From: Spirogloea muscicola
Taxonomy: Eukaryota; Streptophyta; Zygnematophyceae; Spirogloeales; Spirogloeaceae
DNA: 30,438 bases
Assembly (NCBI GenBank): GCA_009602725.1
Contig: WELB01000315.1
Coordinates: 22,424-52,861 of the forward strand
Direction of reading: 5' to 3'
Position 1 is the first letter of the stretch; every line of letters begins with the position of its first letter. The translations under genes and the position numbers were made by a program. The notes below the pieces were generated by a model. That model saw only the letters and a program-made list of their open reading frames with translations. It was not told where the DNA came from and made no database searches. Positions 4,437 to 28,565 of the stretch are shown one piece after another.

Positions 4437-4500
4437 TACAAGGGGGCGATGGCTGTAAAAGGCCAGCCCCATAAAGGTTGGAGAAGGTTCAAGGAAAGCA
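4437..4500 (-). repeat. Hairpin module, minus orientation, downstream of a LINE-like 3' end
   Basis: Read on the minus strand it gives CCTTGAACCTTCTCCAACC, then GGGGCTGGCCTTTTACAGCC, then a TCGCCCCCTTG tail. GGCTG pairs with CAGCC. It lies about 40-100 bases past the group 2 LINE-like 3' end at 4537-4765 and has the same orientation. Confidence 0.6.
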
Positions 4501-4536
4501 TTTGTTAAAACAGCTACGTAAGTGGCTACTTCGAAT

Positions 4537-4765
4537 GGGTGCTGGCAATAACCCCTAGTCAGCACCCGCAAGTCAGAGTAGCTTGCGGATGGAAAATTGT
4601 CACCACGGCGACCCGAAGGCAGCAGCCAAAGCACGGCCTGCCGCAAGTGCCCTGCAAAAGCCTGAGAAGGCTACACCGAGACTGGCAGGCGCAGACGGAA
4701 CGCCTGAGCGAGCAACCTAGCAGCCTTGAAGCTGGGCTCACCTTCATTACCAAATTATTTTTTTT
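4537..4765 (-). mobile_element. LINE-like 3' end, group 2 (5'-truncated)
   Basis: On the minus strand the frames read EPSFKAARLLAQAFRLRLPV, then an AFAGHLR and an Ala/Leu-rich end. This parallels SLAQVFHSMRLSVSF...AGRAMAAAS at 9440-9565 and SLAQINRRLAISPQRSLAF at 27610-27690. The shared pattern is the extreme C-terminus of a reverse-transcriptase polyprotein. It is broken by stops and frameshifts, lacks everything upstream, and ends with the GGGGTTATTG-type segment equivalent to GGTTACTGAG in other copies. Confidence 0.55.
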
Positions 4766-5165
4766 GGGCTGGCCTCCTACAGCCAGTTACTTGGCTACAG
4801 ACGAGTCGGTTTCCATTCTGGCCTTGGCGTCAGGTGCTCGCACGCCGAGCAAGCCGCTTATGAAGGTCCAAGTACAGGCTCTCAGACCCCCCGTGAAAGT
4901 CATTGGCCAGCGCAACCATTCCATCCGCTGGCAGGTTGGTCCGAGCAGTGAGATGAATAGACAGGAAGGTGCGTGGTGCACATGAATGACTCGAAGGCCA
5001 GCTCATGCCAAGACACTCTTCCTGCCAAACATAGGGCAAAGTATGGGGATTCACAAAGCGAAGCCTTATGCTAAGGGGCGCAAAGGCAGGTGTGGAAAGC
5101 CCGCCGAAGGCGACTGCAGTTTCCACGAGTCGAGAAAGAGTCTTCCAGGTGAGGGCGATGGCTGT
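4766..5165. other. Unassigned stretch with one hairpin module at its start
   Basis: 4752-4795 is a plus-strand hairpin module (T run, GGGCTGGCCTCCTACAGCC). The rest has a 98-codon minus frame (4830-5126) and overlapping plus frames, none with recognisable domains. It may be the decayed continuation of the copia reverse transcriptase next door, but I cannot align it. Confidence 0.35.
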
Positions 5166-6184
5166 AAGCGAGCTTATATATATGCTACCGTCTCCGTGCT
5201 ACCGTCTCCATTTCTTTTGATGCGTAGAACCCACTGACAAGCCATGCACTTTTAGCAGGAGGAAATGAAGTCAGCTGCCAAGTACCATCTCTCACAAGAG
5301 ATGCATACTCAGCACCAGCAGCTTGCCAAACAACAGCATCATCAGAGGGAAGAGCTTGAGCAAGGGAGGAAGGATTCCCTGCAATGCCATGAAGGCATGG
5401 TCAGGTGCGAGTGGTGAAATCTTTGGAGTTGTGGCAGATGCAGGAAGCTCGGCAGCTGTAGATGCTTGAACATCGACAGAATCGCATGTGCTATTCTGTG
5501 CTTCAGTAGTCAGTCCATTTGACTCAGACTGTATTTCATTGAAGGGATCATTCAAGCTGTTAGAAGATAAGCAAACACCACTCTTAGGAGGTTGTTGATC
5601 AGTCGAATTGGTTTATACTCCCTCTGATTCAGAGAGCACCACATCTCATCTCACAATAATGCTTTGCCGGTCTAAGTCCCATATGCCTTTTGATACAAGC
5701 TGTATCCAACGAACAAGGATTTGTACGACTTGGCATTCACCTTACTGCAATTTGTATTGAGAACATGTGCTAAGCACAAAAAAACTCTCAGATGAGATAC
5801 ACAAGGTGTAACTCCAGTACAAAGCTCATGTGGTGTTCTGTACAACGGCTGTTGTAGGACTCCTGTTCTTGAAATGAGCAGCAGTAAGACAACCTCTGTC
5901 CCCCAGAATAGGGCAAGATGGCTGCCATGCAGCATGGCTCTGGCAGAATCACAGATGATTCTATCAGCTCTTTCAGCTACACCGGTTTTGCTGCGGTGTG
6001 TGTCGGGTCCTATTTTGTTGAACATTTTGAAAGACTTGCAATATCTGGAAGTATGCTCCAAGGTACTCACCTCGACAAACACTTCTCAGCATCTTCAGCT
6101 GTGCCTGTCTGCCTCTGTGCCATGAGATAACAATCTCAAAATTGAGCTAGCACCTCATAGTTGTGCTTCAGAAAACAAGCAAAT

Positions 6185-6300
6185 GTCATCCTTAACTTCT
6201 CATCTATAAAGGTAACCAGATACTTACTAGCCCCAACAACGATCGTCATCAGGGACTTTACCGTCACTTAAGGTAACTAGAAACTTGCTATCTCCAACAG
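6185..6300 (-). repeat. Imperfect 60-base tandem duplication inside copia integrase
   Basis: 6185-6244 and 6245-6300 are diverged copies with the same ends (GTCATC ... CCAAC). On the minus strand each encodes a form of GDSKFLVTLSDG / GASKYLVTFIDE, so the integrase N-terminal segment appears twice. Confidence 0.55.
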
Positions 6301-6404
6301 AAGCATCGTCAATTGGTCCGCTCACATCAGTGTAGACCAAAAGTAAATTATTAAATATTAAATGAATCTAGTAACTCTTCAGCTCCACTTGCGCTTTCCT
6401 TGGG

Positions 6405-6460
6405 AAGAAAAATTCCGTATATAAGAAACAAATGTAGGCCAAACGGCCAAGTACAGAAAG
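6405..6460 (-). mobile_element. Short LINE-like 3' end (group 1) nested in copia
   Basis: The minus strand reads CTGTACTTGGCCGTTTGGCC, then ACATTTGTTTC and a CGGAATTTTTCTTCCC tail. The same block ends the group 1 elements at 26840-26880, 28370-28430 and 28885-28925. It separates the copia pre-integrase motif from the LVYTDV start of integrase, so it inserted into the older copia element. About 55 bases remain, an extreme 5' truncation. Confidence 0.6.
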
Positions 6461-6717
6461 GGGGAAGGGGAGTTTATGCTGCTTACTTGAAGAACAACCC
6501 TCACACAAGACATCAGAATAATGCTTAGCTTAAATCATCCCTCTTACCCAAACATATCCCTCTCACGATATCCCGTGAGAAGAGCTCTTGAAGATTGTTG
6601 TGTCCTCATATTGGCGATGCAAAAGGTCTCTGCTTGGCGTTGGCAAGGAGCTGGGGGTGCACATCTGGAGATGACTCAAGGGTGGTCACTACCAGTGCGT
6701 AGGAGGACAGCAAGCTA

Positions 6718-7180
6718 GATATATGGAAGCAGATAAGAGGCCACGTGCTTGTCAGAGATCGGACTGACTATGATAGCAAGCTTGTTTCCTAGACGATTCA
6801 TAGCATCAACATGCGTGAGTAAGGAAGTTCCCTCTGTCATCTGATGCCCAAGTAGGAACATCTCATTAGCGGGCTTTGGGACATTGTTGAGGTTCGTCTT
6901 GTACAGCAGGCTTGTGCAGTCATAGCTAGATCTAGTCCATAACCAACTGCACCATGTGGAGTTTCTCAATAGCGCCAAGGCATGTTAGGATTGACTAAAT
7001 GAAGTGTGTATACCCAAATCGTTGGAGATGTTCCATTTCTGGAGACTACTTGGGCTTCGGATGACAGAGGGATCTTGCTTACTCACACATGCCAATACAA
7101 TAGATTGTCTAGGGAACCAGCTTGCTGTCATAGGCAGTCCGGTTTCTGATAAGCACATGGCCTCTTGCTTTCTAGCTTGC
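6718..7180. repeat. Inverted gag duplication, about 140-base arms
   Basis: The reverse complement of about 6718-6865 matches about 7040-7180 at roughly four bases in five; both contain GATGACAGAGGGA and CCTCTT at matching places. The spacer is about 175 bases. The two copia fragments are therefore opposed, with gag 5' parts innermost. Confidence 0.7.
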
Positions 7181-7835
7181 CTTCCTCCTACAAAGTGGGA
7201 GTGACCTCCTTGAAAATGGAGAACCAGCTCCATCTCTCTCACAAGTCATATTCAAACTTGTACTGGAAGAGACTAAGAGAAAGGACAAGGCGTTTAAGAG
7301 TAGCTCCCATGATGCTATGGCGCTTTTTAGCAGTACAAGTCCAAAAGGCCATCTGCTCCTCTCCTCAAAGATAAATCATGCTGAGAAGACATGCTGGAAA
7401 TAACATCCAGAACCAAGACACAGTCCCCTAAGAAGTACTTCGGCGTCGTCAGAGGAAGCTTCTATGACTGCCTCTTGTACTAACTTTACTACTTCTGCCA
7501 ATGGTGATGAGTGGTAGATGGGTCCTGGAGCTACTCAGCAGCTCTGCTGTCACTCATCATGGTTTAGCAGCTACAAAAGTTCTTCACCCCTGAATATTTA
7601 CCTAAGCAGATGGGAATTTCGGACATGCTGTAGGTACATTCCAATTACTTGCCCAAGTGAAGAGTAGAGACGAACCATTTGTACTGTGCAAGAATGTGCT
7701 CCATGTTCCGTCTATGGAGAACATCTGTATTCAGTCACTGTTGCAACTTGTGATGATAAGGAAGTGAGGTTCTTCGCAGACAAATGTGAGAGTTCATCCA
7801 CGGAATTGTAAGCAGATGCTGGCTTTAGGCAAAGA
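7004..7835 (+). mobile_element. Second Ty1/copia remnant (gag and protease region), plus strand
   Basis: Plus-strand frames give LGLRMTEGSCLLTHANTIDC, SDKHMASCFLACLP, SYKVGVTSLENGEPAPS and EETKRKDKAFKSSS, a gag of the same type as the minus copy. Around 7410 a CWK triplet may be the remains of the zinc knuckle. From about 7510 come WVL(D)SGAT-like, WFSSYKSSSP and VLCKNVLHVPSM, the copia protease and the linker before integrase, broken by frameshifts. The element stops near 7835 with no integrase or RT and no LTR. Its 5' end faces the 5' end of the minus element. Confidence 0.75.
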
Positions 7836-7949
7836 AAGATGTATCAGTTACAGTGCACTGTTCTTACATAGCAGCTGCCAGACTGTGCTTTGACACCAGC
7901 TACTTGGCTTGGCCTTCGGACTGGCTACCGCCTCCAACAGCCATAGGAC

Positions 7950-8139
7950 ATGCGGCTGGCGCTCGCCACTCTCACGAGGTGCATTGCACAGCGGCCGCAG
8001 TGCCTGGCCCAAGCCCTGCCTTCCTCTACGGCAGCGAAGGCGGCGTACGCGTCTTCCGGCGTGGGCATCCTGGCAGGCGCCGCGGCTCTCGTCCAGCACC
8101 CGCGCTTCCGCAAAGCGCCAGCCGCTCTGAAGCAGGCTT
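7950..8139 (+). CDS. Possible truncated first exon with mitochondrial-type presequence
   Basis: The frame from the ATG at 7950 begins MRLALATLTRCIAQRPQCLA and continues for about 63 residues rich in Ala, Arg, Ser and Leu with no Asp or Glu, as in mitochondrial targeting peptides. It contains GVGILAGAAALVQHPRFRK. The frame then runs into a hairpin repeat at about 8145. No downstream exon was recognised, so this is either the start of a gene cut by repeats or a chance frame in GC-rich DNA. The function is unknown. Confidence 0.25.
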
Positions 8140-8340
8140 CCCATTCTTTTCTGGGCTGGCCACTTCTTTGGCTCGTTCGCACTCAAGCTCCCTCAGACCT
8201 TGTCCATTCTTTTGGGCTGGCCTTTCCCAGCCACCAGTCAATCTGGCCGCGCTTTCTTCTTTGGCTTTAGACATTGTCCACTCTTTTTGAGCTGGCTTTG
8301 CCAGCCCCTCTTCTCTATTGAGCATCTTTAGTCTCTATGG
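8140..8340 (+). repeat. Two or three hairpin modules in tandem, plus orientation
   Basis: A degenerate half copy is at about 8145-8165. A full copy is at 8200-8262 (CCTTGTCCATTCTTTTGGGC, stem GGCTGG...CCAGCC, then CACCAGTCAATCTGGCCGCG). A third is at 8272-8325 (GAGCTGGCTTTGCCAGCCC, then TCTCTATTGAGCAT). The CACTCAAGCTCCCTCAGACC leader before the second copy is shared with 25760-25780 and, inverted, with 25127-25150. Confidence 0.7.
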
Positions 8341-8404
8341 AGCGCCCCTTGCTGACGACTTGGTACATGGTATCCTGCTTCTTACGCCATCCGGCCCTTC
8401 CAGG

Positions 8405-8545
8405 CCGGCCCTTTCCACTTGCGAGCAGGCCGCGCTCTGGCTGCTGCTTCTGGGTGTCGGCGGGTGCCTCTTTCCCAGCTCGGGTGACTATGACTTGCTG
8501 CTGCTCACTCGTGGTCACCAAGCTTCCATCTACGGTGGTCTTGTG
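8405..8545 (+). mobile_element. LINE-like 3' end, group 2 (short)
   Basis: ACTTGCGAGCAGGCCGCGC, then TGGCTGCTGCTTCTGGG, then GACTTGCTGCTGCTCACTCG, match the end of the copies at 9520-9665, 25615-25720 and 27675-27785. In one frame the first part reads HLRAGRALAAAS, the terminal residues of the element's protein. A plus-strand hairpin module follows at 8575. Confidence 0.5.
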
Positions 8546-8567
8546 CATAGCTGGGTGGTTTAGGCGC

Positions 8568-8665
8568 CTTTCGGCTCTTTGGACCTTGTTCATTCTTCTT
8601 GGGCTGGCCTTTCCCAGAGAAAGCGCGGCCAGATTGACTGGTGGCCTGGCCTTTCCCAGCAGTGG
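8568..8665 (+). repeat. Hairpin module with an embedded second copy
   Basis: GGACCTTGTTCATTCTTCTT and GGGCTGGCCTTTCCCAG are followed directly by the reverse complement of the CACCAGTCAATCTGGCCGCG tail, then by a second GGCCTGGCCTTTCCCAGC. One copy seems to have been inserted or recombined into another in opposite orientation. Confidence 0.55.
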
Positions 8666-9040: not shown

Positions 9041-9045
9041 ACCAC

Positions 9046-9665
9046 ACACAGTGCATGGAGTCTTCCTGGAGGCGGGCTACATGGTAACAGTGAATAACCA
9101 CTTCCATCATGCCCATCCAGCTGGGCGCGGACGGTCAGCTCCATACCCAGCGCGCCAACCTGGTCGCCATCCCGCCCGGAGGAGGTCCTCGCATCATCGC
9201 GGATGTGGTGACTGCGTCGACTCCGCCAACCCCACCATATTGGCGTCGACCGCAGGGCACGCGGTCGGCCTGGCGGCCCGTGGCAAGGAGCGTAAGTACG
9301 TCGACCACCCTGCTGGTGATGAAGTTGCTGGCGATTGACGTTCACGGGGCTTTCGGCAGTCGCTGGCTGGACCCTTCCAGCTGCTTGCCCGGCAGACCAT
9401 CGATCGGCGGCTGGGTTAGCCAGGGGAGCTGCCCGGCTTCAAAGCTGCCGGCTCGCTAGCGCAGGTCTTCCACAGCATGCGGCTGTCGGTCTCTTTTCAG
9501 CGCTCCCTGGCTCACACAGTCTACTCGCGAGCAGGTCGCGCTATGGCTGCTGCATCTGGGTCTAGGCGAGTGCCTCTTTCCTAGCTGCGAGTTACTCGGA
9601 CTGGCTGCTGCCCACTCGTGGGTACCGAGCTTCCATCTGCATCGTCTCGTGTCTAGCTGGGAGAG
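9046..9665 (+). mobile_element. LINE-like C-terminal region, group 2 (longest copy)
   Basis: Frames read GVFLEAGYMVTVNNHFHHAH, MPIQLGADGQLH, IPPGGGPRIIADVVT and GHAVGLAARGKERKYVDHP. These line up with VEVNNIMPITTDAQG, GEGPRAVDVVVTEVY and IAGHAVDSAEQ of the group 1 element at 28973-29599. Next come RWLD...LLARQTIDRRLG and SLAQVFHSMRLSVSF...AGRAMAAAS, like the C-terminal helices that end many reverse-transcriptase polyproteins of plants, algae and oomycetes. Frames change at least twice, so it is inactive. The segment up to about 9665 includes the CGAGTTACTCGG block equivalent to the 3' region of other copies. Confidence 0.55.
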
Positions 9666-9724
9666 CCACTTTCTGTCTAAGGCCCGCGCGCTGCACCTTC
9701 GTGCCGGCAGAGCCCTCGCTGCTC

Positions 9725-9754: not shown

Positions 9755-9837
9755 AGTAAGGCGTGTGTATGAAGAGATGGGGAGGCCTCGCTGCTCTCTG
9801 GCGGTCCTCTGGCCGCGCTTCCCGTCTGGCTAGAGAA

Positions 9838-10370
9838 AGTGCTCGCCCATTGAGAATAGGGGCTGGAAAAGCCAGCCCAAGAAACAATCAACAAAGGACG
9901 AGAAGGGGGCCAGGGGAAGGAAGCGCTTAGAAAATCAAGCACACCGAAACAAAGCAGCTACGGATCACTCAGTAACTCCTGCTAAGCAGCCCCAGGTCAG
10001 AGACGCTAGGCTCCTGGAAGTGGGTCCCCTGGCCAGAAGAAAGTGCTCGCCCATTGAGAATAGGGGCTGGAAAAGCTAGCCCAGAAAAGATGAATAGAGT
10101 ACGAGAATGGGGCCAGGGGAAACGCTAAGAAAAGAGGAAGTGCTCGCCCATTGAGGATAGGGGCTGGAAAAGCCAGCCCACTATCAGCAGCCTAGCATCT
10201 CTGATCTGCGGCTGCTTAGCAGGGGTTACTGAGTGATTCGTAGCTGCTTTGTTTACTTGTGTGCTCTTGTCTTTCTTAGCTTTCCCCTGGCCCCGTTCTC
10301 GTACTCTTTTCATTCTTTTTTGGGCTGGCTTTTCCAGCCCCTATCCTCAATGGGCGAGCACTTATCTTCA
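9838..10370. repeat. Foldback of hairpin modules, about 175-base arms
   Basis: The left arm (9838 to about 10012, minus) and right arm (about 10187-10370, plus) are inverted copies. Each contains, from the outside in, the AAGTGCTCGCCCATTGAG tail, the GGCTGG/CCAGCC stem, GGGGCCAGGGGAA, AGCAAAGCAGCTAC-like sequence, CTCAGTAAC and GCTAAGCAGCC. The spacer holds two more minus-strand hairpin modules (10033-10095 and 10135-10185). Five pieces of one family are therefore stacked in 530 bases. Confidence 0.75.
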
Positions 10371-10974: not shown

Positions 10975-13867
10975 ATGCTACGGGCCAATGGTCATGAGCA
11001 TGATGGCAGTGGCCATTGGCAGCAGTGCGACCGCTTCATACCCAACCGGCGGTCACTAGACCTGGACATTGCGCAATTCAGCATCCTGCGCGAGTGCACC
11101 AAGGACAACATTGGCGGCGGCAATGACCCGGCATTGGCTCCGCCGCCGCACCTTGCCGTCACGTCGCCCGTCAAGGTCAGCGGGAATGGCTGCTGCCTAT
11201 GCGGCTGCTGGTCTTCGCAGTGCTTGTGAGCCAGGTCGTCGTGGCCAAGGTGCCCATGCCTGGTGGCGGTATTGTTGGACCGCAGGAGGAGTACAAGCGG
11301 AAGCTGGCGGCAAATCTGCTACGGGAGTCCGGTGGCGGAGTTGGGGGAGGCATTGGTGTTCGAAGCAGGGGCAGCAGCCCCATCCTCTCCTTCAAGAGCC
11401 CTGCACGGCAGCCAACATCGGCGTCAGTGGCGGCGTTAGCAGACCTGGACCTGCAAGCCGGGGCTGGCGATGGCACCATCACCTCGCGTCGGCCCTTCCG
11501 CCACATCCCTGAGGTGCCACGCCGCTTCTGGCGGCGGAGCTCAGCTTTGTGTAGTTAGTCAGGTCCTGCAAAAGGAGGTTGAGGATCTGCTGCTAACGCA
11601 GGCCATGGCCTGATTGTTGCAACATCATGTCAGGGCCAATCTCTGTGCTTTGTATCAAATTGAGGATCGTTGTCTATGTGATTGCAACATCTTGACATCA
11701 CCATCAAGTCAAGTTTTCATTGCCTCTGTATAGACTCATGAGAACCTCTGAAAGCTCTTATGCATTCGCCTGACAACATCAGTGCTTTGATCGTTTTGGG
11801 CAGGGGTCGGAGCGCATCCTTGACGCGCCAGAGCTTGTGGATGACTACTACCTCAACCTCCTGGACTGGAGCTCGTCCAACGTCGTGGCTGTCGCCCTGG
11901 GCACTGCCGTGTACCTGTGGGAAGCCTCGGGCGGCACCATTCAGCAGCTGATGCAGGCGGACGAGGGAGGTGGCGGCAACGACTACGTAACGTCCGTCGC
12001 GTGGGCTGCTGATGGCCGCCACCTTGCCGTCGGGCTCGACTCCGCTGATGTCCAGCTATGGGATGCGTCCCGCCTGCGCCAGGTTCCACCTCCTGCATGC
12101 ATCTCTCTCCTTCAGACCTCTCCCTGCCTCGCTCCATCGCTATCATCTCTGACAGCCACATGTCCCTCTCTATGCCACCCGTGCCTGCCCTTGTCCAACC
12201 AGCTCCGCCTGATGCCTCTGGACTGAGGCGCGTCCTGTTGCAGGTGCGCACCCTGCGGGGTCATGGGGCCCGCGTTGCAAGCCTCGCCTGGAGTTCGTCG
12301 CTGCTCACCACCGGCGGACGTGACACACTCATCCTCAATCACGATGGTATAGGAAGGCTTTGCAACTGGCCCTCCAATCTCGCCTACGCTTCAACCTTGC
12401 TGAGTTGATCCAAAATCTCCACTATACATCTAGTAGCTGCTTTCCTTAGCTGCTTCTGAACTCTTGGTGCCACTTGGCTCCCTAGCTGTCTTTGACACTA
12501 TGGCATGGTGTGGCCTGCAGTAAGGGTGCGGGAGCACGTCGTCTCCCGCCTAGCTGGCCATGATCAGGAGGTCTGCGGCCTGCGGTGGGCACCTTCAGGC
12601 CGCCAGCTCGCTAGTGGCGGCAATGACAACCGCCTGCACATCTGGGACGTTTCGGCTGCGTCGTCATCGCTGCCGCCGTCTGGCGGGCGGCAAGGCGGCG
12701 CCCCTATACGGCCGCGCTACCTGCACCGCCTTGAGCAGCACACCGCAGCCGTCAAAGCCCTCGCCTGGTGCCCGTTCCAGGTGCAAATTACGCCGCTGCA
12801 CGGGCATGCCCGCCACCGGCGCTGGCTGATTTTGACGTCGCCTCCTGATGACAGCAGCTTGCTCTGTGCACAACAAGAGGCAGCATTTGTGAAGACTGCA
12901 GGCCGTATCTTGTGATTCCAGCTCTTGTGTTTGCACTCCCAAAGCCATTGCTGGTGTCGTTACCGCTGCCTCGGCATCGTCGCTGTGCACAGAGCACTTT
13001 GCTGGCATCTGGCGGCGGCACAGCAGACCGCTGCATCCGATTTTGGAACACCACCAATGGCACGTGCCTCAACTCCATCGATACGCACTCTCAGGTTCGC
13101 TGAAGTCATCCACAGAGCTTGACTTCCCTGGCCATTTGACAGCTGACAGCTGAGAGAAGTGACTCACATGTAGCAGTGGTGGCGGGTGGCATTGGGTGAT
13201 GGCGTGCAGGTATGCGCCCTACAGTGGTCAACGCACGAGCGGGAGATCCTGTCATCGCACGGTTTCAGCCAGAACCAGCTCTGCCTCTGGCGGTATCCGA
13301 CTCTGGCCCAGCTCGCGGAGCTGCGGGGCCATTCTGCGCGCGTCCTCCACCTGGCGCAGGTATATTGCCAGTGCATGTTGGACTCCCCCTCTCCACTTTC
13401 CCGTCTTTGCTCCTCTGGCCTGTCACTGTCCTCCTCGCCTACTCTCCGCCCCAGTCTGCCCTGCTCCAGGGCCCTCTCCTCTGAGCCCTGTCTTCCCTCC
13501 TCCCTCTCCTTTCCTTTCTTGATGCATACCCCCCCACAACCCCACACTCTGCTCCCCTTCCTCCCCGTGGTTTACACGTAACTATGAGTCTCTCCCCTGC
13601 GAGCTCCCCATTTCCTTCTCGCAGTCGCTAGTAGGGCCACTCTTTGTGACGCTGTACTCATTTTGCTGCTGCCATCGAAACGTGCGCCGAGCTTCATCGC
13701 AGAGCCCGGATGGACACACAGTGGTCTCGGCGGCTGCAGACGAGACACTGCGCTTCTGGCAGGTCTTTGGCCAGCCCGGGGTCAGCAGCCAGCGGCTTCT
13801 CCGTGCTGGCCGTAGCGCCGGCAGCACCGCATCACCCCTTGCAGCGCGCTCTTTCAACATACGCTAA
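10975..13867 (+). CDS. CDC20: CDC20-type activator of the anaphase-promoting complex, eight exons
   Basis: CDC20 loads substrates such as securin and cyclin B onto APC/C at metaphase. Exons: 10975-11175, 11286-11513, 11804-12082, 12244-12346, 12521-12780, 12993-13094, 13210-13359, 13703-13867. All seven introns are GT-AG and phases agree, giving about 495 residues, normal for the family. The C-box DRFIPNR lies about 20 residues from the chosen start. A Gly/Ser-rich linker leads to [20 protein letters not shown], then WD40 repeats including [118 protein letters not shown] and [15 protein letters not shown]. The protein ends in Ile-Arg, the tail that docks on the APC3 TPR subunit. AHSQV- and ADETLR-type repeats favour CDC20 over CDH1/CCS52. 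The first exon start (ATG 10975) is provisional; no KEN or D-box was seen. Confidence 0.95.
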
Positions 13868-13909: not shown

Positions 13910-14830
13910 GTTGAGTCACTTTGCAGCACAATTGAGATGTGAGTTTGCCCCCCCTTGTTGCAAGAGAAAGTTCCGCTTGCTGTCCTACATATTGTGCCTT
14001 TTCCAACCTCTGCCTTAAACATTTGCTGCTTGGCTTTTACAATGGTTGCATCTAGTATGCATGAAATCATGTCGATACACCTTGCCAAATATGAATATCC
14101 TGAGGGCTTTTGGGTCCTGCCAACTCTGAGAGCTGTTTCAACTCTGAGAGCTGATACTGACTGTCCCTTGCTTGCGATGTTGTCCGGCCAACACTCGTCA
14201 AACTGGTGTTCAAATGGATAATGACGAGCTTCGCGACAATGAGGTTCATCAATGCTGCCATGAGGACAGCACGTGAGCTGACAAGCAGAGGACGGCAAGC
14301 TTGCTCCACGGCTGTGACTAGGCTGTGACCAGGCTCAGGTATGGGTGATATAGCAGGCCAATGACCAGCAATCAAAGCCGTGGTCAGCTCGTCTTAGCAG
14401 CGGTACAGCTTCTGGCTAGCGGTTTGCGTGGCGGCGCAGGCAAGCTCACCGCAGTGATTCTGCTTAGGAGCTCCTCACTGCCGTCATGGCAAATGAACGT
14501 CACAGCCTGCCTTGAAAACAGCGGGCCGCAACACTATGCTTGTCTAATAGAGAATGTAGAGCAGTTGGTAGAGCTGCAAGCATCAGGCAAGATACAGAGC
14601 AGGTCTTGCCTTACAGATATCATGTGTCAGCCTGGTGTAATTAGCACGCATGAGTGGCCATGCGTGGCTGGGCAACCCACACTAGTGGGGATGAAAGCAA
14701 TGTCATTGACTATTGCATACATGTTTGTCGGGGTGACCATGTTGTGCTGGTGCGCTGATTGGCAGCAGCTTAAGGACTCCTGAATTTTAATTTGCAAGAG
14801 GTCCAGGGCAGGACAGCTTTTGAGAAGGAA
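13910..14830. other. Intergenic sequence, no gene recognised
   Basis: AT content is higher than in the genes. Frames of 80-140 codons exist on both strands but show no domains. A perfect 15-base direct repeat (CAACTCTGAGAGCTG) occurs at 14121-14135 and 14139-14153. Confidence 0.5.
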
Positions 14831-14975
14831 TTGCGCGTCCATCGAGAAGAGGGGCTGGTAGAGGCCAAGCCCTGGAAGAATGGACAAAGTCCAAAGTGCC
14901 AAAAAGATGCCGAGGAAGAAATTCTACAAAGCTAGGCACAAGACGACGCAACGGGAAACTCAGTAACCCCTAATT
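14831..14975 (-). repeat. Hairpin module with upstream segment, minus orientation
   Basis: Contains GCGTCCATCGAGAAGAGGGG, a decayed stem (GGCTGGTAGAGGCCAAGCC), AGAATGGACAAAGTCCAAAG and then AACTCAGTAACCCC. On the minus strand the order is GGTTACTGAG, pyrimidine leader, stem-loop, tail, as in the other longer copies. Confidence 0.65.
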
Positions 14976-15505: not shown

Positions 15506-16305
15506 GCCGCCTTTGGATTCCGCAAGGTGACTGTCTTCCTGCTGCTACAATTTTTTAATTGCGGCTGTTGAATATAAGCTACTGAGCAGTCATTCATGGT
15601 GTTCACTGGCTTTGCTGAGTGGTTCGCGTTTTCTGTCGCCTTCAACCTTGTCCGTTCTCTCTGGGCTGGGCTTTGATTCCAATGACCCTCCTGGACAAGC
15701 TTTCTAATTGCCGGCCGGCGTCGCCGTGGTTGGCCTTGTTATTGTATGCTGCGTGCAGCTGCATTTCCGCCGCAGTGTCGAGGAACATTCTCGGGCTGGT
15801 CCCGAGGTGGCGCCCCGCTGAGGGCGGCTCTCGTGGAGGCACGCACCTCTCCAGACTGCACTCTTCCCTATGTCTTTGCTGGATCATCGGCAGAAAAGAG
15901 AACCGCGCTTCCACAATGTTTGGTGGCTGTGAGAGGCCAGCCCAAAAGAAGAGTATCACAATCACAAAAAGGTTTTCCCTTGTGCAGATTGACTCCATCT
16001 GTTGAGCAAAGCTATGTCCTAAAGTAATCTGATAATCTGGAGTACCAAAAGCTAGCATAACATTGTCATGTATGTACAAGCCTAACAAAATCTGGATGAG
16101 AATATTCGTGTCCAAGCACTCTAGCTGACACGTTCTTGATGTTCTCTTGCTGTTCTTGTTACCTACTTGGCCACTCTGGCCCTCCATACCCTCCGTACAA
16201 GGATAGCCTTGCAAATTCACTACGCATTCGGATCTAGTTCATCAATACGTGGGCTGGCATTCCCCACCCCCTCTTCCTATGAGCTTATTCCTAGTACGAG
16301 TTTCT
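15506..16305. other. Unassigned stretch with degenerate hairpin pieces
   Basis: 15645-15680 has TTGTCCGTTCTCTCTGGGCT (plus, right half lost). 15920-15955 has a minus copy (GGTGGCTGTGAGAGGCCAGC, then CCAAAAGAAGAG). 16240-16300 has GTGGGCTGGCATTCCCCACC, then TATGAGCTTATTCC. No coding domain was recognised in between. Confidence 0.5.
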
Positions 16306-16617: not shown

Positions 16618-16685
16618 GGTCCCTTCGGACTTTGACTATCCTGTTCGGGCTGGCTTTTCACAGCCCTCGGATGAGCTTTGCTTCT
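16618..16685 (+). repeat. Hairpin module following a LINE-like 3' end
   Basis: CCCTTCGGACTTTGACTATC, then CGGGCTGGCTTTTCACAGCC, then CGGATGAGCTTTGCTTCTT. The stem is GGCTG/CAGCC with an eight-base loop, the same loop type as at 26305-26325. Confidence 0.6.
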
Positions 16686-16818: not shown

Positions 16819-16984
16819 TGTATCCCGGCTCTCCACGTGCCTGAAGTGCTGGAGGTTCCAAAGCGGGGAAGGACATCCCAGTGGAACTGCCGCCAGGCTC
16901 CACACCATACTCTGGTCAACACCGTGTCCGTTGAGCGCTCTCTACTTTATCGGTCAGCGTGGCCCGCTACACTTCCCACTTCCA

Positions 16985-17085
16985 GGACCCTAGCCTCTCT
17001 GATTTGCGGCTGCTTAGCAGGGGTTACTGAGTAATTTGTAGCTGCTTTCTTTCTTTGTGTGCTTTGGTTTCTTAGCGCTACAGCG
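16985..17085 (+). repeat. Solo upstream segment of the long hairpin repeat
   Basis: CTCTCTGATTTGCGGCTGCT, then TAGCAGGGGTTACTGAGTAA and TTTGTAGCTGCTTTCTTT match 10195-10285 closely. The hairpin itself is missing directly downstream; a separate module begins at 17265. Confidence 0.65.
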
Positions 17086-17261: not shown

Positions 17262-17340
17262 TTTTGGCTTCGGACATTGTCCATTCTTTTTGGGCTGGCT
17301 TTGCCAAACCCTCTTCTCTATGGGCGAGCGCTTTCTTTCT
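17262..17340 (+). repeat. Hairpin module, plus orientation
   Basis: ACATTGTCCATTCTTTTTGG, GGGCTGGCTTTGCCAAACCC (right stem decayed), then TCTCTATGGGCGAGCGCTTT. Closest to the copies at 8272 and 26895. Confidence 0.7.
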
Positions 17341-17680
17341 CCGCTCTCGGTGGCTCAGACTCACGAGCTTAAAATGGGAGGGACTGAGCCACCAAGGGCC
17401 GTGCAGTGAGGTAGGGCACGTGGGTCCCCTTTCCTTTCGGGCTACAGTATCAGCCGAGCAGTGCCCACCAGCCAGGCGGGCGACCCCCGCCCGCGCGGGG
17501 CGGGGGGGGGCAGCGGGGCGGGCGGCATAGCTGGGCTAGGGGCCCGCGCCTGGAGCTTGCCTGTCAAGTCCTTTCGCTCCAGCTGTCTGAGCAGTTCTTC
17601 CTCGCAGTGGCCGCCCGCTGTGGGAGAGAGGGGAAGAAAGAGGAGAAGGCGCGGTGCGTATGAAATGCAAGAAGTGGCTC
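17341..17680. other. GC-rich unassigned sequence with G runs
   Basis: Contains GGCGGGCGACCCCCGCCCGC followed by a G8 run near 17500-17512. No domain was recognised on either strand. Confidence 0.4.
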
Positions 17681-17682
17681 TC

Positions 17683-17755
17683 CCAATGGGGGCAAGGGCT
17701 GGGAAAAGCCTTGCCCGAAAAGAATTGACAAAGGTTTGAAGGGGCCAAATGAAAG
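17683..17755 (-). repeat. Hairpin module, minus orientation
   Basis: CTCCCAATGGGGGCAAGGGC, TGGGAAAAGCCTTGCCCG, AAAAGAATTGACAAAGG, then GGGGCCAAATG. The stem here is changed to CAAGGGCTGGG/CCTTGCC-type pairing, still foldable. Confidence 0.6.
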
Positions 17756-22100: not shown

Positions 22101-22482
22101 GTGCTACCGCATTCTGAACGTTAAGCTTCTCACTGGATCAAGTGAGCCAGAAGTACTGCGATGGACACTTTGACAGCACTACCCACAAACATGGTCGACT
22201 TGGCAAGTGTATACTTGTCGCAGAGCAACAAAAAGTTTGGTGGTTGGTGACATGCTGTACACGAATGACCATTCTGAGGCCAAGTGCTAGCCACTGCGGG
22301 CTGCTGCCAAGGGTCCGAAGCGTACTCGGACCATACTTGGGCAGCCGGGAGTCGGCCAGCCGGCATGGTGCACACTCGAATTGCACACATGACTCTTCCT
22401 ACGGCAGGCACAGAGGGCCCGGCTGCTGGCGTACGGCAAAGCTAAGCTGGAGGAAGCGAGGGGGCAGTGAAGCCAGAGTGGC
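19116..22482. other. Long unassigned region, no repeats of the local families
   Basis: Over 3.3 kb lacks the hairpin modules and LINE pieces found elsewhere. A perfect short hairpin (GGAGGACT GG AGTCCTCC) is at about 19353-19370, followed by five T. Two frames have balanced, protein-like composition without recognised domains: minus 21147-21458 (Gln/Glu/Arg-rich, 103 codons) and plus 21560-21943 (127 codons). They may be exons of unknown genes or old retroelement pieces. Confidence 0.4.
21147..21458 (-). CDS. Unrecognised Gln/Glu/Arg-rich open frame
   Basis: 103 codons beginning MRCRQAETESGGQPQAEEMP, with PIEEIILRNHRQRDPLTTDL later. Composition is hydrophilic and unlike the Ala/Arg/Pro frames that GC-rich noise gives in this window. 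Upstream in nearly the same direction the sequence also reads as charged protein (KGSMEEGRKQTAESDRVE), with an intervening stop. It could be an exon or decayed retroelement capsid. No motif supports either. Confidence 0.2.
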   Translation of the reverse strand: MRCRQAETESGGQPQAEEMPIEEIILRNHRQRDPLTTDLVRDLSQTDLQVGSTQSQRANEKFLKSTLLAKSAQAKPDILALGDPMQQRWRRHTSNVCNAPSPG

Positions 22483-24240: not shown

Positions 24241-24279
24241 TTCAGCAGCCCCGAGCAAGGACGCTTCCAGGCCCCCCTT

Positions 24280-24475: not shown

Positions 24476-24531
24476 TCGGGCAATTTCTCCGGGTCGAAGC
24501 GGCGGCGGCGCGCCGCAGCCCGCCGGCCGGC

Positions 24532-24533
<2 letters not shown>

Positions 24534-24572
<39 letters not shown>
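24534..24572. repeat. (CT)19 microsatellite
   Basis: An uninterrupted CT dinucleotide array of 39 bases immediately after a GCC-rich core. It lies between the second hairpin module and the right arm of the inverted repeat. Confidence 0.95.
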
Positions 24573-24576
<4 letters not shown>

Positions 24577-24659
24577 TGGCCGGCGCCGGAGGACCGTCAC
24601 CACCTGCACGTGCAAGCCCCCGGGGGCGAGGCGCCGCGTCTCCTCCAGTCCAAGTAGTA

Positions 24660-24900
24660 GAAGAAGGGCTCGCCCATTGAGAATATGGGCTGGAACAGCC
24701 AGCCCAAAAAAGAATGAACAGAGTACAAGAAGAGGGGGGGGGGAAGCCAGGCGAAGCCCTAAGGCGAAGCAGCAGAAATGACAAGCACACAAGAAAAAAA
24801 AAAGTAGTGGCCTCCGAGTGGGTTCCCACGAGAATGGGCTCTCCCATTAAGGATAGGGGCTGGAACAGCCAGCCCCTATCCTGAATGAACAACACAAGAA
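24660..24900 (-). repeat. Two minus-strand hairpin modules, one with a 14-bp perfect palindrome
   Basis: 24662-24735 has GGGCTCGCCCATTGAGAATA, GGGCTGGAACAGCCAGCCC, AAAAAAGAATGAACAG. 24832-24890 begins the same way (CTCCCATTAAGGATAGGGGC), but after the loop the sequence returns as CCAGCCCCTATCCT, so arms 24850-24863 and 24869-24882 pair perfectly around AACAG. Confidence 0.8.
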
Positions 24901-24924
24901 CGGTCGGGCCACTGTGAAGAAGAA

Positions 24925-24990
24925 GGAGCTGGCAAAGCCAGCCCCAAAAGAATGGACAAATCCTAAAGAGCCAAAGAAGGTGCTGAAAAG
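24925..24990 (-). repeat. Hairpin module, minus orientation
   Basis: AAGGAGCTGGCAAAGCCAGC, CCCAAAAGAATGGACAAATC, then CTAAAGAGCCAAAGAAGGTG. The left tail (CTCGCCCATTGAG) is missing, so the copy is truncated at the loop-distal side. Confidence 0.65.
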
Positions 24991-25224
24991 AAGAGCTACA
25001 CAGCTGGACACGAGACCCTTTGAGAGCTGCTCCTATTCCTTCTTCTACTTTGTTCGACTGCTTCGCTTCCTCAGAGAGAAAGCGGGCCAGATTGACTGGT
25101 GGCTGGGAAAGGCCAGCCCAAAAGAATGCACAAGGTCTGAGGGAGCTTGAGTGCGAACGACTAGGACTAAGACATCAGCCAGGGAACGCTCAGTAACCTC
25201 TAGACAGGAGATGCAGATCCTCAG

Positions 25225-25281
25225 AATACTGACAGATAGAAGCTTTCGGGTCGATTAAGGTGATGACTATCTGTCAGTATT
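25225..25281. repeat. Perfect 15-bp stem with 27-base loop
   Basis: AATACTGACAGATAG at 25225-25239 is exactly complementary to CTATCTGTCAGTATT at 25267-25281. It lies just inside the left arm of the larger inverted repeat and has no counterpart near the right arm. Confidence 0.9.
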
Positions 25282-25309
25282 TCTAGGCTGGCCACACGAA
25301 TGAAATGAG

Positions 25310-25500
25310 GTGTCCAAAGTGATGGAGAGCCAGAGTGGCCAAGTACAAAGCCACACGGCTCCACAGGAGAGGTGCCGGCCGCCGCGCCGCGGCGCCCCGC
25401 CGCCGCGCCGACCTCGTGAGTTTCGGGGCAAGGAAATTTCGATTATCTGGGATTTCGTGGCGATGCTGTAGTCGAACCCAGGTCCATTCCATTTTCCTCG
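25310..25500. repeat. GCC-core repeat with B-box-like segment
   Basis: GAGGTGCCGGCCGCCGCGCC and further GCC units, then GGGATTTCGTGGCGATGCTG and TAGTCGAACCCAGGTCCATT. On the minus strand the end reads CCTGGGTTCGACTACAGCAT. The arrangement is parallel to 24145-24240 and 25860-25950. Confidence 0.5.
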
Positions 25501-25574
25501 CCCCTTTCGGGAGAAGCTACTCCCAGAAGCTTCTGTTGAACGGCTGCTTCTCTTCTCAGCCATCGCCTTGCCAA

Positions 25575-25725
25575 AATGCTTCCATCTTCTGTCAATATTT
25601 GTCTTTAGGTTCACTTGCGCGCAGGCCGAGCTTTGGCGGCGGCTTCCGGCTTCCGTCAGGGCGACGTCTTTCCGCCAGCTAGCTACTCCGACTTGCATCT
25701 TCTGACTAGAGGTTACTGAGCGTTC
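25575..25725 (+). mobile_element. LINE-like 3' end, group 2
   Basis: TCTGTCAATATTTGTCTTTA, ACTTGCGCGCAGGCCGAGC, TTTGGCGGCGGCTTCCGG, GTCAGGGCGACGTCTTTCCG, then GACTTGCATCTTCTGACTAG and AGGTTACTGAGCG. It matches 27655-27790 step by step. The coding part ends in the HLRAGRALAAA-type residues. The hairpin module of the right arm (25760-25834) follows on the same strand. Confidence 0.6.
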
Positions 25726-25854
25726 CCTGGCTGATGTCTTAGTCCTAGTCGTTTGCACTCAGGCTCCCTCAGACCTTGTCCGTTCCTTTGGGCTGGCCGT
25801 TCCCAGCCACCAGTCAATCTGGCCGCGCTTCTTCCTTTTGGCTGGCCACACGGA

Positions 25855-25985
25855 GCTTTGCCGGCCCGCCGGGCCGCGGCGCACTGCCGCCGTGTTGACC
25901 CCGAGAGTTTCCTGAGCGATGCTGTGGTCGAACCTTGTCTATTCTTTTTTGGCTGGCTTTCCGCAACCCCCCCTTCATCTACTTC
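25855..25985 (+). repeat. GCC-core repeat joined to a hairpin module
   Basis: CCGGCCCGCCGGGCCGCGGC, AGAGTTTCCTGAGCGATGCT, GTGGTCGAACCTTGTCTATT, then a T run and TGGCTGGCTTTCCGCAACCC. Here the B-box-like segment runs straight into the pyrimidine leader of the hairpin, showing that the two pieces can belong to one unit. Confidence 0.6.
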
Positions 25986-26210
25986 CCCTGGCCCAGGCTT
26001 TGCACCAGCTGGGCGAGCTCTAGTTGGTGGCAGAAGGGCTTCGTAGCTGACATGTAATATTCAGGCATCGATTAGTGACCTTTATGTTTCGACCCGTGGT
26101 TACTGAGCGGGGCAATTTGCTGAAGGTTATGTAGGTCTTTAGATGTGCTTGCCTTTGTATTTGGCTATTTGGCCCTCGTTTGTTCAAATTTACAGAATTG
26201 CTCCTGGCCC
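25985..26210 (+). mobile_element. LINE-like 3' end, group 1 (5'-truncated)
   Basis: Begins CAGGCTTTGCACCAGCTGGG, matching the last coding residues of the 26330 copy, then AGAAGGGCTTCG, GTGACCTTTATGTTTCGACC, GGTTACTGAGCGGGGCAATT, GTGCTTGCCTTTGTATTTGG and GTTTGTTCAAATTTACAGAA. A hairpin module in the same orientation starts at about 26215. Confidence 0.65.
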
Positions 26211-26335
26211 CCTCTACTATGTTCATTCCTTTTTTGGGCTGGCTTTTCCAGCACCGATCCACAATGGGGGAGCCCTCTCCTTCCCTTCATCTCTCCTTGT
26301 CTTCTCGGGCTGGCTTTTCACAGCCCTTGCCACGG
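26211..26335 (+). repeat. Two hairpin modules directly after a LINE-like 3' end
   Basis: 26215-26275: CTATGTTCATTCCTTTTTTG, GGGCTGGCTTTTCCAGCACC, CAATGGGGGAGCCCTCTCC. 26300-26330: TCTCGGGCTGGCTTTTCACA, GCCCTTGCC. The first begins about 10 bases after the conserved LINE tail. Confidence 0.7.
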
Positions 26336-26885
26336 ATAGGACCACGGGCCCTCGTCGACGTTGTTGTTGCGGAGGCGTATAAAGGTCCAGCATCGACACG
26401 CATCGCTGGTCACGCAGTGGGCGGTGCTGAACAAAGACAACTGCAGCACTACTCCGATCACCCCCAATGCGATCAGCTCCTGCCAGCGGCAATCGACATC
26501 TTTGGCTGTCTGGGTCCTCGTTTCCACCCTCTCCTTCGAAATATTGCCAATCTAAGCTACACTCGACAAGCCGATGTGGTCCCGGCTGAGATGGACTTGC
26601 CAGCTGCATATCTGTCGCTCTTGCTACGACGAGTTTCGGCCTGTTTGCAGCGTGCTCAGGCTAGTGCCTTGCACCAGAAAGCTGGGCGAGCTCTAGTTGG
26701 TGGCAGAAGGGCTTCGTTTCTGGCATTTGGTATTCATGCATCGAGTTAGTGACCTTTGAATTTTGACCCGTAATTACTGAGCGGATCAATCTGCTGTAAG
26801 TAATGTAGATCTACAGATGTGCTTGCCTTCGTACTTGGCCATTTGGTCTACGTTTGTTTGAAATACACGAAATCCTCCCCTTGCC
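26330..26885 (+). mobile_element. LINE-like C-terminal domain and 3' UTR, group 1
   Basis: An open frame to the stop at 26749 reads RALVDVVVAEAYKGPASTRI, AGHAVGGAEQ, CDQLLPAAIDIFGCLGPRFH, PAEMDLPAAYLSLLLRRVSA and CLQRAQASALHQKAGRALVG. It aligns residue by residue with the minus-strand copy at 28973-29599. The shape (IDV core, FG.LGP, then R.S..LQRA.A) is that of the region after the fingers and palm in many non-LTR reverse transcriptases. The upstream part is missing. The 3' UTR (26750-26885) keeps GACCCGTAATTACTGAGCGG and CTTGCCTTCGTACTTGGCCA. Confidence 0.65.
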
Positions 26886-26965
26886 CCATTAAAAGAGGAA
26901 AGTGCGCGCCCATAGAGAAGAGTGGCTGGCAAAGCCAGCCCAAAAAGAATGGACAATGTCCAAAG
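26886..26965 (-). repeat. Hairpin module, minus orientation
   Basis: GTGCGCGCCCATAGAGAAGA, GTGGCTGGCAAAGCCAGCCC, AAAAAGAATGGACAATGTCC, AAAGCC. The stem is perfect. It is opposed to the LINE copy that ends just before it. Confidence 0.75.
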
Positions 26966-27034
26966 CCAAAGTAAGAGGTACCGAAAAAGGTCTACAACAC
27001 AAAACACAACACTACAGAACACCCCATTGGGAGA

Positions 27035-27245
27035 GCAACTTGTTCGCCCACTTGCTGACGCCTTTGGGGACTAGTATCCTGTTCTTCGCGCCTTCCGGCC
27101 CTCTCAGACCTTTTCCAAGCTTCGGGCCGGCCTCTCACAGCCACTTCTGTCAAGTTAAGAAGCTGTTCCCTTCCGACCCTTTCAGACCTTGTACACCCCT
27201 TTTAAGCTGGCCTCTCACACCGTTGCCGTCAATCAGACGAGCTAT
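27035..27245 (+). repeat. Two hairpin modules of the CACAGCC type
   Basis: GCCCACTTGCTGACGCCTTT, GGGGACTAGTATCCTGTTCT and TTCCGGCCCTCTCAGACC lead to CGGGCCGGCCTCTCACAGCC (27125). CCCTTTCAGACCTTGTACAC then leads to AAGCTGGCCTCTCACACCGT and CAATCAGACGAGCTATC (27200). The same leader recurs at 27785-27850. Confidence 0.6.
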
Positions 27246-27449
27246 CCTTTGGAAGAGCTCACCTCCTCCGCCCCCTCTGACAGAAGAAAGTGGCTCTCCC
27301 AAAGCTCGTCCAAATTACGTCAATGGCTGGAAAGGGGTCGAGGGATGTGAACAGCAAGCCCGAAAATTTGACAGTCTGAAGAGGCCCAAAAAGCGCGTTA
27401 CCCAAAGCTAAGAGCTCTGAGAGCACTATCTCTCTTCTTTCTTCTTTTC

Positions 27450-27510
27450 AATCTTGAGCAAGCCTTTCACAGCCGTCGCCGCCATTTAGGAAGACCTTTC
27501 CACTGAATAT
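27450..27510 (+). repeat. Degenerate hairpin module
   Basis: TTTTCAATCTTGAGCAAGCC, TTTCACAGCCGTCGCCGCCA, TTTAGGAAGACC. Only the right side of the stem (CAGCC) and the tail remain clear. Confidence 0.45.
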
Positions 27511-27514
27511 TTGG

Positions 27515-27790
27515 GACTCGGTGGCACGGCATCCTCCGGCGACTTGCGCGTCATGCAATATCCCGCCGCCAAGGACAGCAGAGCGAGCAGCCCGGCTACA
27601 ATGCCGCCGGGTCGCTTGCTCAAATTAACAGACGCCTGGCAATCTCTCCGCAGAGATCCTTAGCCTTTGCCGTCCACTTGCATGCAGGCCGCACCCTGGC
27701 TGCTGCCTAAGCTTTTCGTCAGGGCGACGCTTTTCCGCCCTCTATTGATGTTGACTTGCAATTACTGACCAAAAGTATTGAAAGCCCACT
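27515..27790 (+). mobile_element. LINE-like 3' end, group 2
   Basis: One frame stays open through ARHAISRRQGQQSEQPGYNA, AGSLAQINRRLAISPQRSLA and FAVHLHAGRTLAAA, the best preserved C-terminus of group 2. It is followed by GTCAGGGCGACGCTTTTCCG and TTGACTTGCAATTACTGACC. A hairpin module on the same strand follows at 27830-27905. Confidence 0.6.
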
Positions 27791-27827
27791 TACTGACGTC
27801 TTGGAGGCTAGTATTCTGGTTTTTGCG

Positions 27828-27910
27828 CGATCTGACCTTTTCAGACCTTGTCCATCCCTTTGAGCTGGTTCCTCACAGCCATTGCCGTCATTTGAGCTAT
27901 CTCTTTCTAT
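27828..27910 (+). repeat. Hairpin module following a LINE-like 3' end
   Basis: TTTTCAGACCTTGTCCATCC, CTTTGAGCTGGTTCCTCACA, GCCATTGCCGTCATTTGAGC, TATCTCTTTC. Stem AGCTG/CAGCC is slightly weakened. Confidence 0.6.
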
Positions 27911-28240
27911 CTAACTCGCTGTGTGAAGCGCTTTTAAGGATGCGGCTTTAAGCGTAGCAGCGCTCCCAAGCTCTGGCTATTCAACAACGTGCTGGGCGCG
28001 CGCTTGAAGTCCGGCCAGCGGCTTCCGTGGCGGAGCTCGGGCTCCTCAAATTTAGCCAGTCGGAGTAGTATGTGCACCCGTTGGTATTAATATCACACTG
28101 TTACCTCTGCAACCTCAGAAATGGGCTACGATTTTACCTGCCCCACTATTTGCACTAGCTTTTGCCTCAACAAGGTATTGGCTTCAAATTGGCCACTCTC
28201 TTATGTCAAATGCACCGTATGCCTTCTCTCTTTTCTGACC
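27911..28240. other. Unassigned sequence with a repeat shared with the window end
   Basis: 28160-28235 (GCCTCAACAAGGTATTGGCT, TCAAATTGGCC, TGCCTTCTCTCT) matches 30330-30400 on the same strand. No coding domain was recognised. Confidence 0.5.
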
Positions 28241-28330
28241 CCTTCGACCTTTGTTCAATCTTTTTCTGGGCTCGCCAGTCACAGCCATCGCCCTCTACTG
28301 GACGAGTCTCTCTCCCTGCCCTTCCCTTTC
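28241..28330 (+). repeat. Hairpin module, plus orientation
   Basis: CCCCTTCGACCTTTGTTCAA, TCTTTTTCTGGGCTCGCCAG, TCACAGCCATCGCCCTCTAC, TGGACGAGTCTCTCTC. The left stem has a G-to-C change at GGCTC. Confidence 0.55.
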
Positions 28331-28430
28331 GGGTCAATTTGCAGTAGGTGATGTACGTCACCAATGTGCATGCCTTTGTACTTGGCCAATTTGGCCTCCA
28401 TTTGATTAAGATATACGAATTTTCTCCCCT
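28330..28430 (+). mobile_element. LINE-like 3' UTR only, group 1
   Basis: GGGTCAATTTGCAGTAGGTG, ATGTACGTCACCAATGTGCA, GCCTTTGTACTTGGCCAATT, TGGCCTCC and TACGAATTTTCTCCCC match the 3' UTR of 26770-26885 and 28885-28965. No coding part remains. Confidence 0.65.
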
Positions 28431-28504
28431 TCTTCCACCCGAGCCTGTAGGGCGTGGATGCGGGCCGACTCGCATGCCGTCGAGATATATAATGACAATC
28501 TGAC

Positions 28505-28565
28505 TACAGTACATTCCCTAAGGGCTGGCTCCTCACAGCCATTGCCTTGTATTGAAAGAGCTGTT
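28505..28565 (+). repeat. Hairpin module, plus orientation
   Basis: AAGGGCTGGCTCCTCACAGC, CATTGCCTTGTATTGAAAGA, GCTGTTTCTTTCTTTC. It lies about 85 bases past the LINE-like 3' UTR at 28330-28430, same strand. Confidence 0.6.

Follow-up and report, generated by a model that had tools for sequence, protein, structure and literature searches.

A hairpin module at the 3' ends of several LINE families in the Spirogloea muscicola genome

Introduction

Remnants of long interspersed elements (LINEs) and copies of a short hairpin module lie side by side in a stretch of 30,438 nucleotides (nt) of Spirogloea muscicola (Streptophyta; Zygnematophyceae). This whole stretch, hereafter the window, corresponds to positions 22,424 to 52,861 of contig WELB01000315.1 (assembly GCA_009602725.1). 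The module consists, in order, of a TTGTYCATTC leader, a T run, a GGCTG...CAGCC stem, a TGG..GAGC-like tail and pyrimidines. Four LINE family groups (A, C, D and alpha/beta) have this module as their 3' terminus, on the strand of the element. Other copies are found alone, and other LINE groups end without the module.

Modules and LINE ends in the window

A covariance model (R1) was trained on 22 hairpin copies from the window, which therefore match it by construction. The model gave 39 module matches on both strands at E<=1, of which 32 were at E<=1e-4, and a motif scan agreed on both strands. The subtypes carry our own labels, A to E. Subtype A has the loop CTTTT and the tail CTATCCTCAATGGGCGAGCAC, and subtype D the loop CCTCTCA and a tail ending in TGGAAGAGC. 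The tails of B, C and E are CTCTTCTCTATGGGCGAGC, ACCAGTCAATCTGGCCGCGC and CTTGCCCCCATTGGGAGAGCC, respectively. The motif scan and the comparison of subtypes recovered the loop variants listed in the original prediction, which had been made from the letters of this DNA. The tail is nearly as constant as the stem, and leader and tail both include columns that are nearly stem-like in constancy. Membership of a known RNA family was set aside, as the window has no Rfam match at the gathering threshold. The modules and LINE 3' ends are as follows, with model scores in bits:

4425-4492, minus: D-type module, 3' end of the LINE end at 4537-4765 (minus); 53 bits
8193-8258, plus: C-type module; 72 bits
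8267-8332, plus: B-type module, immediately after the C-type tail; 60 bits
8386-8629, plus: LINE C-terminal remnant (..LLTRGH..) with module 8579-8629; 33 bits
8863-8915, plus: A-type solo module, leader cut; 54 bits
8949-9015, minus: B-type solo module; 78 bits
9835-10024, minus: family A LINE 3' end (stop 9968-9977), module 9835-9901; model match
10039-10104, minus: A-type solo module; 69 bits
10136-10180, minus: A-type module without leader; 48 bits
10177-10365, plus: family A LINE 3' end, ..LLSRGY* (stop 10224-10233), 3' untranslated region (UTR), module 10299-10365; model match
14827-14968, minus: B-type LINE end (..RGY*, stop 14959-14968), module 14827-14894; model match
15899-15966, minus: D-type module; 50 bits
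16310-16682, plus: D-type LINE end, module 16625-16682; model match
17270-17335, plus: B-type module; 72 bits
17671-17738, minus: E-type module, 5' arm altered; 55 bits
24281-24348, plus: A-type solo module; 81 bits
24405-24471, plus: A-type solo module; 78 bits
24662-24728, minus: A-type solo module; 78 bits
24897-24973, minus: B-type solo module, tail lost; from the motif scan (stem 24943 minus), the model scoring the neighbouring 24832-24899 instead
25076-25215, minus: family C LINE 3' end (stop 25189-25198), module 25076-25140; model match
25620-25834, plus: family C LINE 3' end (..LLTRGY*, stop 25711-25720), module 25769-25834; model match
25985-26279, plus: family T LINE 3' end (25985 to about 26197), then A-type module 26212-26279, foreign to family T
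26898-26963, minus: B-type solo module; 80 bits
27515-27907, plus: family D LINE 3' end, module 27841-27907; model match
28244-28313, plus: D/E-type module; 56 bits
28320-28567, plus: family T LINE 3' end (28320-28430), then D-type module 28500-28567, foreign to family T

The LINE remnants have a common C-terminus ending ...RGY*. The original prediction had named seven LINE-like ends followed by the module. All seven do have a same-strand module nearby, but two of them (25985-26210 and 28330-28430) belong to family T and the module is not theirs. Two further attached ends were missing from that list: 10177-10233 plus (module 10299-10365) and 25185-25215 minus (module 25076-25140). Among the eleven copies named as solo, those at 9838 and 14831 are attached to LINE ends (9940-10024 minus and stop 14959-14968 minus). 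By our reading, the following LINE ends have no module on their own strand within 230 nt: 9400-9680, 16975-17060, 26353-26872, 28890-29635 minus, 6437 minus and 30240-30404. In the E-type module at 17671-17738 minus, the 5' stem arm is GGGCAAGG, which repeats the downstream CCTTGCCC exactly in inverted orientation, as though the arm had been converted through a local template switch.

The window also contains pieces of genes (DnaJ at 390-827, chorismate-binding at 3770-4132 and CDC20/Fizzy WD40 at 11774-13578). A retroviral polymerase SH3-like domain at 5672-6082 minus (3.2e-9) is probably the remnant of an element of the long terminal repeat type. An inverted repeat of 121 bases has arms at 6735-6855 and 7046-7166 that are 83% complementary and 190 bases apart.

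The module as a LINE 3' terminus

The association of module and LINE was measured in the genome (153 Mb, 471 contigs). A regular expression for the module was searched on each strand up to 230 nt from an anchor at the end of the open reading frame (ORF). The samples comprised 20 of the 42 family A matches listed, mostly best-scoring first, 10 of 41 for family C and 10 of 48 for family D. Another 20 loci, 12 of them alpha/beta and eight gamma/delta/epsilon, were taken from 135 matches to the protein sequence that follows the reverse transcriptase (RT) domain. Subtype B was tested in the window only. The first anchors failed at all 20 family T loci, at six of the eight gamma/delta/epsilon loci and at two alpha loci, and these groups were rerun with other anchors.

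A same-strand module was found at 16 of 20 loci in family A, 10 of 10 in C, 8 of 10 in D and 12 of 12 in alpha/beta; opposite-strand modules numbered 2, 1, 2 and 1, respectively. Two of the A loci without a regular-expression match (L003 and L009) have degenerate modules that the model recovered. The other two (L017 and L019) are, by eye, interrupted by another LINE sequence. The alpha/beta ends carry the same GGCTG...CAGCC stem as the others, but another leader and another tail. At two D loci (L116 and L121), a similar other sequence occupies the place of the hairpin directly after the leader.

The module also marks the boundary of the element. At the 20 family A loci, the UTR is followed by leader, hairpin and tail, after which the loci diverge, save where other sequence intervenes. 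In 40 A-type copies, the majority base has a frequency of 0.85-1.00 over TTTCTT and of 0.55-0.68 over the next three bases, and falls to 0.30-0.42 from the tenth base. Ten C-type copies drop similarly, and 12 alpha/beta copies drop already after two bases. Both parts of the original prediction that concern these groups, a hairpin at the LINE 3' terminus and a preference for the strand of the LINE end, are thus borne out in A, C, D and alpha/beta.

Could the LINEs instead have entered older pyrimidine-rich modules, so that the module is not their own? The distance from anchor to hairpin is nearly constant: 68 in C, 59-60 in D (once 49), 32 in alpha/beta and 84-92 in A, with exceptions at L002 (139) and L020 (124), where other sequence is inserted. 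The stretch between anchor and hairpin is uniform within each family (C, D, alpha/beta and most A loci). This constancy refutes nested insertion for A, C, D and alpha/beta, and as a general account nested insertion is very improbable. It does fit family T and gamma/delta/epsilon, as seen at L020, L098, L101 and L102. Furthermore, L091 (beta) is placed in an older tail, and the pairs at 25985-26279 and 28320-28567 probably arose in this way too.

LINE groups that end without the module

Family T is represented in the window at 28905 minus, 26835, 26161, 28382 and 6437 minus, and its 3' end is about ...TTTCAAATACACGAAATTTTCC. The aligned C-terminal part of its protein is 38% identical to that of alpha, which makes T a sister group. 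A same-strand module was found within 230 nt at two of 20 T loci and an opposite-strand module also at two. The covariance model at E<=0.01 gave downstream same-strand matches in two loci and opposite-strand matches in five. These 20 loci are from 41 matches listed, and two of them (L072 and L073) look identical, which leaves 19 distinct. The sample left out, among others, contigs C100 and C3, where the query matched over nearly its whole length, probably with the module as in the window. The neighbouring D-type end is matched on both contigs as well, and they resemble duplicated copies of the window cluster; with them the T count would probably be 4 of 22. As family T ends without the module, a single hairpin serving all LINE-like ends was rejected, and the claim of a module for all seven named ends fails.

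Two side observations concern family T. It has a short palindrome of its own (GGCCATTTTGGCC) near the 3' end, and some copies have an RGY*-like ORF end (28890-29635 minus, 26353-26872, 25985-26197, 28320-28430 and 6437 minus). The cluster at 27580-28565 (D-type end, T-type end, D-type module) is matched in the same order on contigs C3 and C100, and so looks block-duplicated.

The gamma/delta/epsilon groups end in about ...CATGCGCCCCGCGCGCCTTCTC and lack a module of their own. The modules near them stand at distances of 44, 104, 199 and 41 and, by eye, differ in subtype. Insertion beside or into old modules may account for them. An epsilon-type LINE 3' end of this kind (..CATGCGCCCCGCGCGCCTTCTC), without a module, was recognised by eye at 30240-30404. 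A caution follows: the sequence found 3' of a LINE end need not belong to that LINE.

Solo copies, truncation and insertion sites

The A-type module, searched as a 42-base string with at most two mismatches, has 2526 copies in the genome, and the C-type string has 2324; backwards control patterns gave 0 in both cases. At the same stringency, the family A ORF end has 1280 copies and the UTR stretch 818. The ratio of module to ORF end to UTR is only rough, since these stretches vary to different degrees. A 114-base query spanning ORF end and UTR gave 1385 first-look candidates, of which 40 were scored. Modules are spread over many contigs among the matches listed.

Forty A-type copies from contigs C1-C52 were compared with LINE copies. 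All are exact matches and were drawn from 100 listed places of the 2526, so the sample leans to young copies. Homology to a LINE copy extends upstream for 43 to at least 442 bases, with a median of 87.5. Measured lengths stop at gaps, and L021, L041, L056 and probably L057 exceed their stated length. The copies thus form a gradient from the bare hairpin to LINE fragments. The original prediction had proposed that solo copies are severe 5' truncations or parasites using the tail; the graded lengths in A agree with truncation, and no tail-using parasites were found among the 40 loci.

Solo hairpins might still be an independent short element that borrows a LINE 3' end, similar to a short interspersed element (SINE) or a mobile small RNA, with truncation explaining the longer copies only. 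This could account for the 22 of 40 copies that are 100 nt or shorter by alignment, though at least three (L021, L041 and L056) are longer with internal gaps, and for module copies being about twice as frequent as ORF-end copies. Start points are, however, scattered over 43-96 nt, with no one fixed head, the lower limit being set by the search string. A constant 5' SINE head joined to a LINE tail was not found in the small sample of 40 A-type loci. In ten pairs of upstream flanks, homology reached both break points, and all of it was, by eye, LINE or module sequence. The lack of an Rfam match in the window also speaks against a known small RNA. We regard such an independent element as distinctly unlikely.

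Putative target-site duplications are present in a minority of copies. Identical repeats of 8 nt or more, placed as duplications, were found in 8 of 38 copies, compared with 6.2% of permuted pairs. The longest are at L026 (13 nt) and at L048 and L050 (9 nt), and those at L026, L048, L049 and L050 look convincing. Older modules appear among the targets. By eye, L011 has a C-type LINE end inside an A-type hairpin, flanked by repeats of CTTTTCCAGC, and L020 has a T-type 3' end inside an A-type leader, flanked by CCCTTCT repeats. A copy start adjoins an older tail in 8 of 40 cases; among 1900 control positions from these flanks, 94 do so.

Modules also follow one another. Exact A-type patterns showed 21 places in which a same-strand module stands shortly behind a tail, and eight in which the module close behind it is on the opposite strand. 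In seven of these eight, the two modules stand tail to tail by eye, only a few bases separating the pyrimidine run from the purine run. One explanation of arrays of abutting modules from different families is a hairpin code common to several LINE families, in which each RT could copy the RNAs of the others. Arrays would then arise by a jump from the broken 5' end of one RNA to the next hairpin, or from re-targeted old tails. We consider this rather unlikely.

The encoded enzyme

At L083, an RVT_1 domain (4.6e-17) lies within a stop-to-stop frame of 1434 amino acids, and several of the top matches to the protein sequence after the RT sit in open frames of 1340-1490 amino acids. When the RT was ranked against PDB sequences with phmmer, R2 came first (9nl3, E 2.2e-7), followed by L1 ORF2p (7.7e-5). 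The Pfam matches of the L083 frame include no APE domain. A C2H2-like finger upstream is only suggested (zf-met E 0.11, below the cut-off); aligned to the R2 finger it scores 3.4 bits, which is not significant. A CCHC pattern was seen by eye near the C-terminus. It is followed by a putative restriction-endonuclease-like motif, likewise seen by eye. The C-terminal part matched no Pfam family with two single sequences and nothing in PDB with an alignment profile. A structure model of this part was too poor to use (predicted local distance difference test score 37).

Interpretation

The account we favour, and hold to be probable, is that several related LINE RNAs have the module as their 3' terminal sequence. 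The RT encoded by these LINEs would most likely recognise the leader-hairpin-tail end of its own RNA, as position, conservation and precedent suggest for the hairpin. Target-primed reverse transcription would begin at the pyrimidine end after the tail (GAGCACTTTCTT in A). Synthesis would often stop early, so that many insertions are 5'-truncated, some of them extending barely beyond the hairpin; these would be the solo copies. Insertions may enter runs of pyrimidines, among them those in the leader, loop and tail of older copies. Modules would consequently pile up together and beside the 3' ends of module-free LINEs from sister families. We infer low processivity and a preference for pyrimidine targets, and take recognition and priming at the pyrimidine end by analogy from stringent-type LINEs (PMC4176376).

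Several results weigh against this account. At L116 and L121 in family D, the hairpin is missing behind the leader. Same-strand modules stand within 230 nt at four of the eight gamma/delta/epsilon loci, a small sample, and opposite-strand modules at none. In 30 of 38 copies, no identical repeat reaches 8 nt, and several of the 8-nt repeats are mere pyrimidine runs. Compensatory change in the stem was not found: no pair is altered on both sides in the 22 window copies, and among 139 distinct rows a single cell showed such change, which is not above the shuffled mean. The latter count used 150 of 188 model matches (100 loci) in an alignment fitted to the model, without selection for an exact stem. 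Folding is ordinary for C, D, alpha and beta (z -0.74 to +0.45) and moderate for B and E (z -2.07 and -1.86). Furthermore, leaders of B, C and alpha/beta find a better pairing partner in the A tails than in their own tails, and D leaders pair about equally well with B tails and with D tails.

How far, then, does structure matter? With so little variation in the stem, covariation can give it no support. The original prediction had counted a lack of covariation against itself, and none beyond shuffles was seen; its statement that the stem is usually kept does hold, but as conservation of sequence. A typical A-type RNA folds much better than shuffled versions of it (z -4.73, 0 of 200), and its fold includes an outer helix between leader and tail. 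This helix fits A and B, and A leaders pair best with A tails. As a structure common to all families, the outer helix is unsupported by fold scores and by cross-family pairing.

The hairpin may instead serve the RNA in another way, by forming its 3' end, stabilising it or aiding its packaging, with the RT needing only the tail sequence. This possibility overlaps with the account favoured here except for the target of the RT, and a stem conserved as sequence without covariation, next to a tail nearly stem-like in constancy, would fit it. It has against it that the proteins of stringent-type LINEs bind their own 3' stem-loops, with recognition established by experiment for ZfL2 (PMC4176376). We think it improbable, to about the same degree as the shared hairpin code. 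Recognition of the whole leader-hairpin-tail end stays the preferred explanation.

Comparison with known systems

We would call the module a stringent-type LINE 3' tail: a trick already known, here in another element group. The stringent-type tails of zebrafish ZfL2-1 and ZfL2-2 and of eel UnaL2 likewise form a stem-loop within the 3' tail, on the side from which the RT begins to copy the element (PMC4176376). ZfL2 belongs to the L2 clade and its recognition was shown by experiment (PMC4176376). Here, recognition is a prediction, the families differ very little in the stem, and a search among 40 loci found no SINE partner. The open-licence papers found by literature search do not name the hairpin in the title or the start of the abstract.

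Hairpins have also been described in plants and Chlamydomonas. Plant L1 elements and monocot SINEs have a 3' hairpin in common, and the Chlamydomonas SINEX elements are partners of RandI and L1-1_CR; the hairpin described has CGAG in the 3' flank and UCU in the loop (PMC3747384). Similarly, the A and B tails here contain CGAG and the D loops TCT. The comparison is one of resemblance and does not imply homology. Compensatory changes were reported for the plant L1/SINE hairpin (PMC3747384), and none were found here.

The nesting of 5'-truncated copies into old ones is known from Zepp and ZeppL of green algae, of which mostly the 3' ends remain (PMC8226300). Zepp has been assigned to L1, with a 3' end of (A)n (PMC3747384), and in Coccomyxa it is clustered at one place per chromosome (PMC3446292). 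Unlike Zepp as described there, the modules here end in pyrimidines and occur on many contigs among the matches listed.

Points of likeness between these LINEs and the R2 type are the best PDB match of the RT, the lack of APE among the Pfam matches, the long single frame and the C-terminal CCHC seen by eye. R2 inserts at one site in the ribosomal DNA, whereas the elements here are dispersed and their endonuclease is putative. If the RT is indeed R2-like, the module would bear on 3' recognition beyond the L2 and L1 clades. To conclude, one genome offers a natural experiment on how a LINE enzyme chooses its RNA, with related families that end in the hairpin, the sister family T that ends without it, and thousands of module copies.

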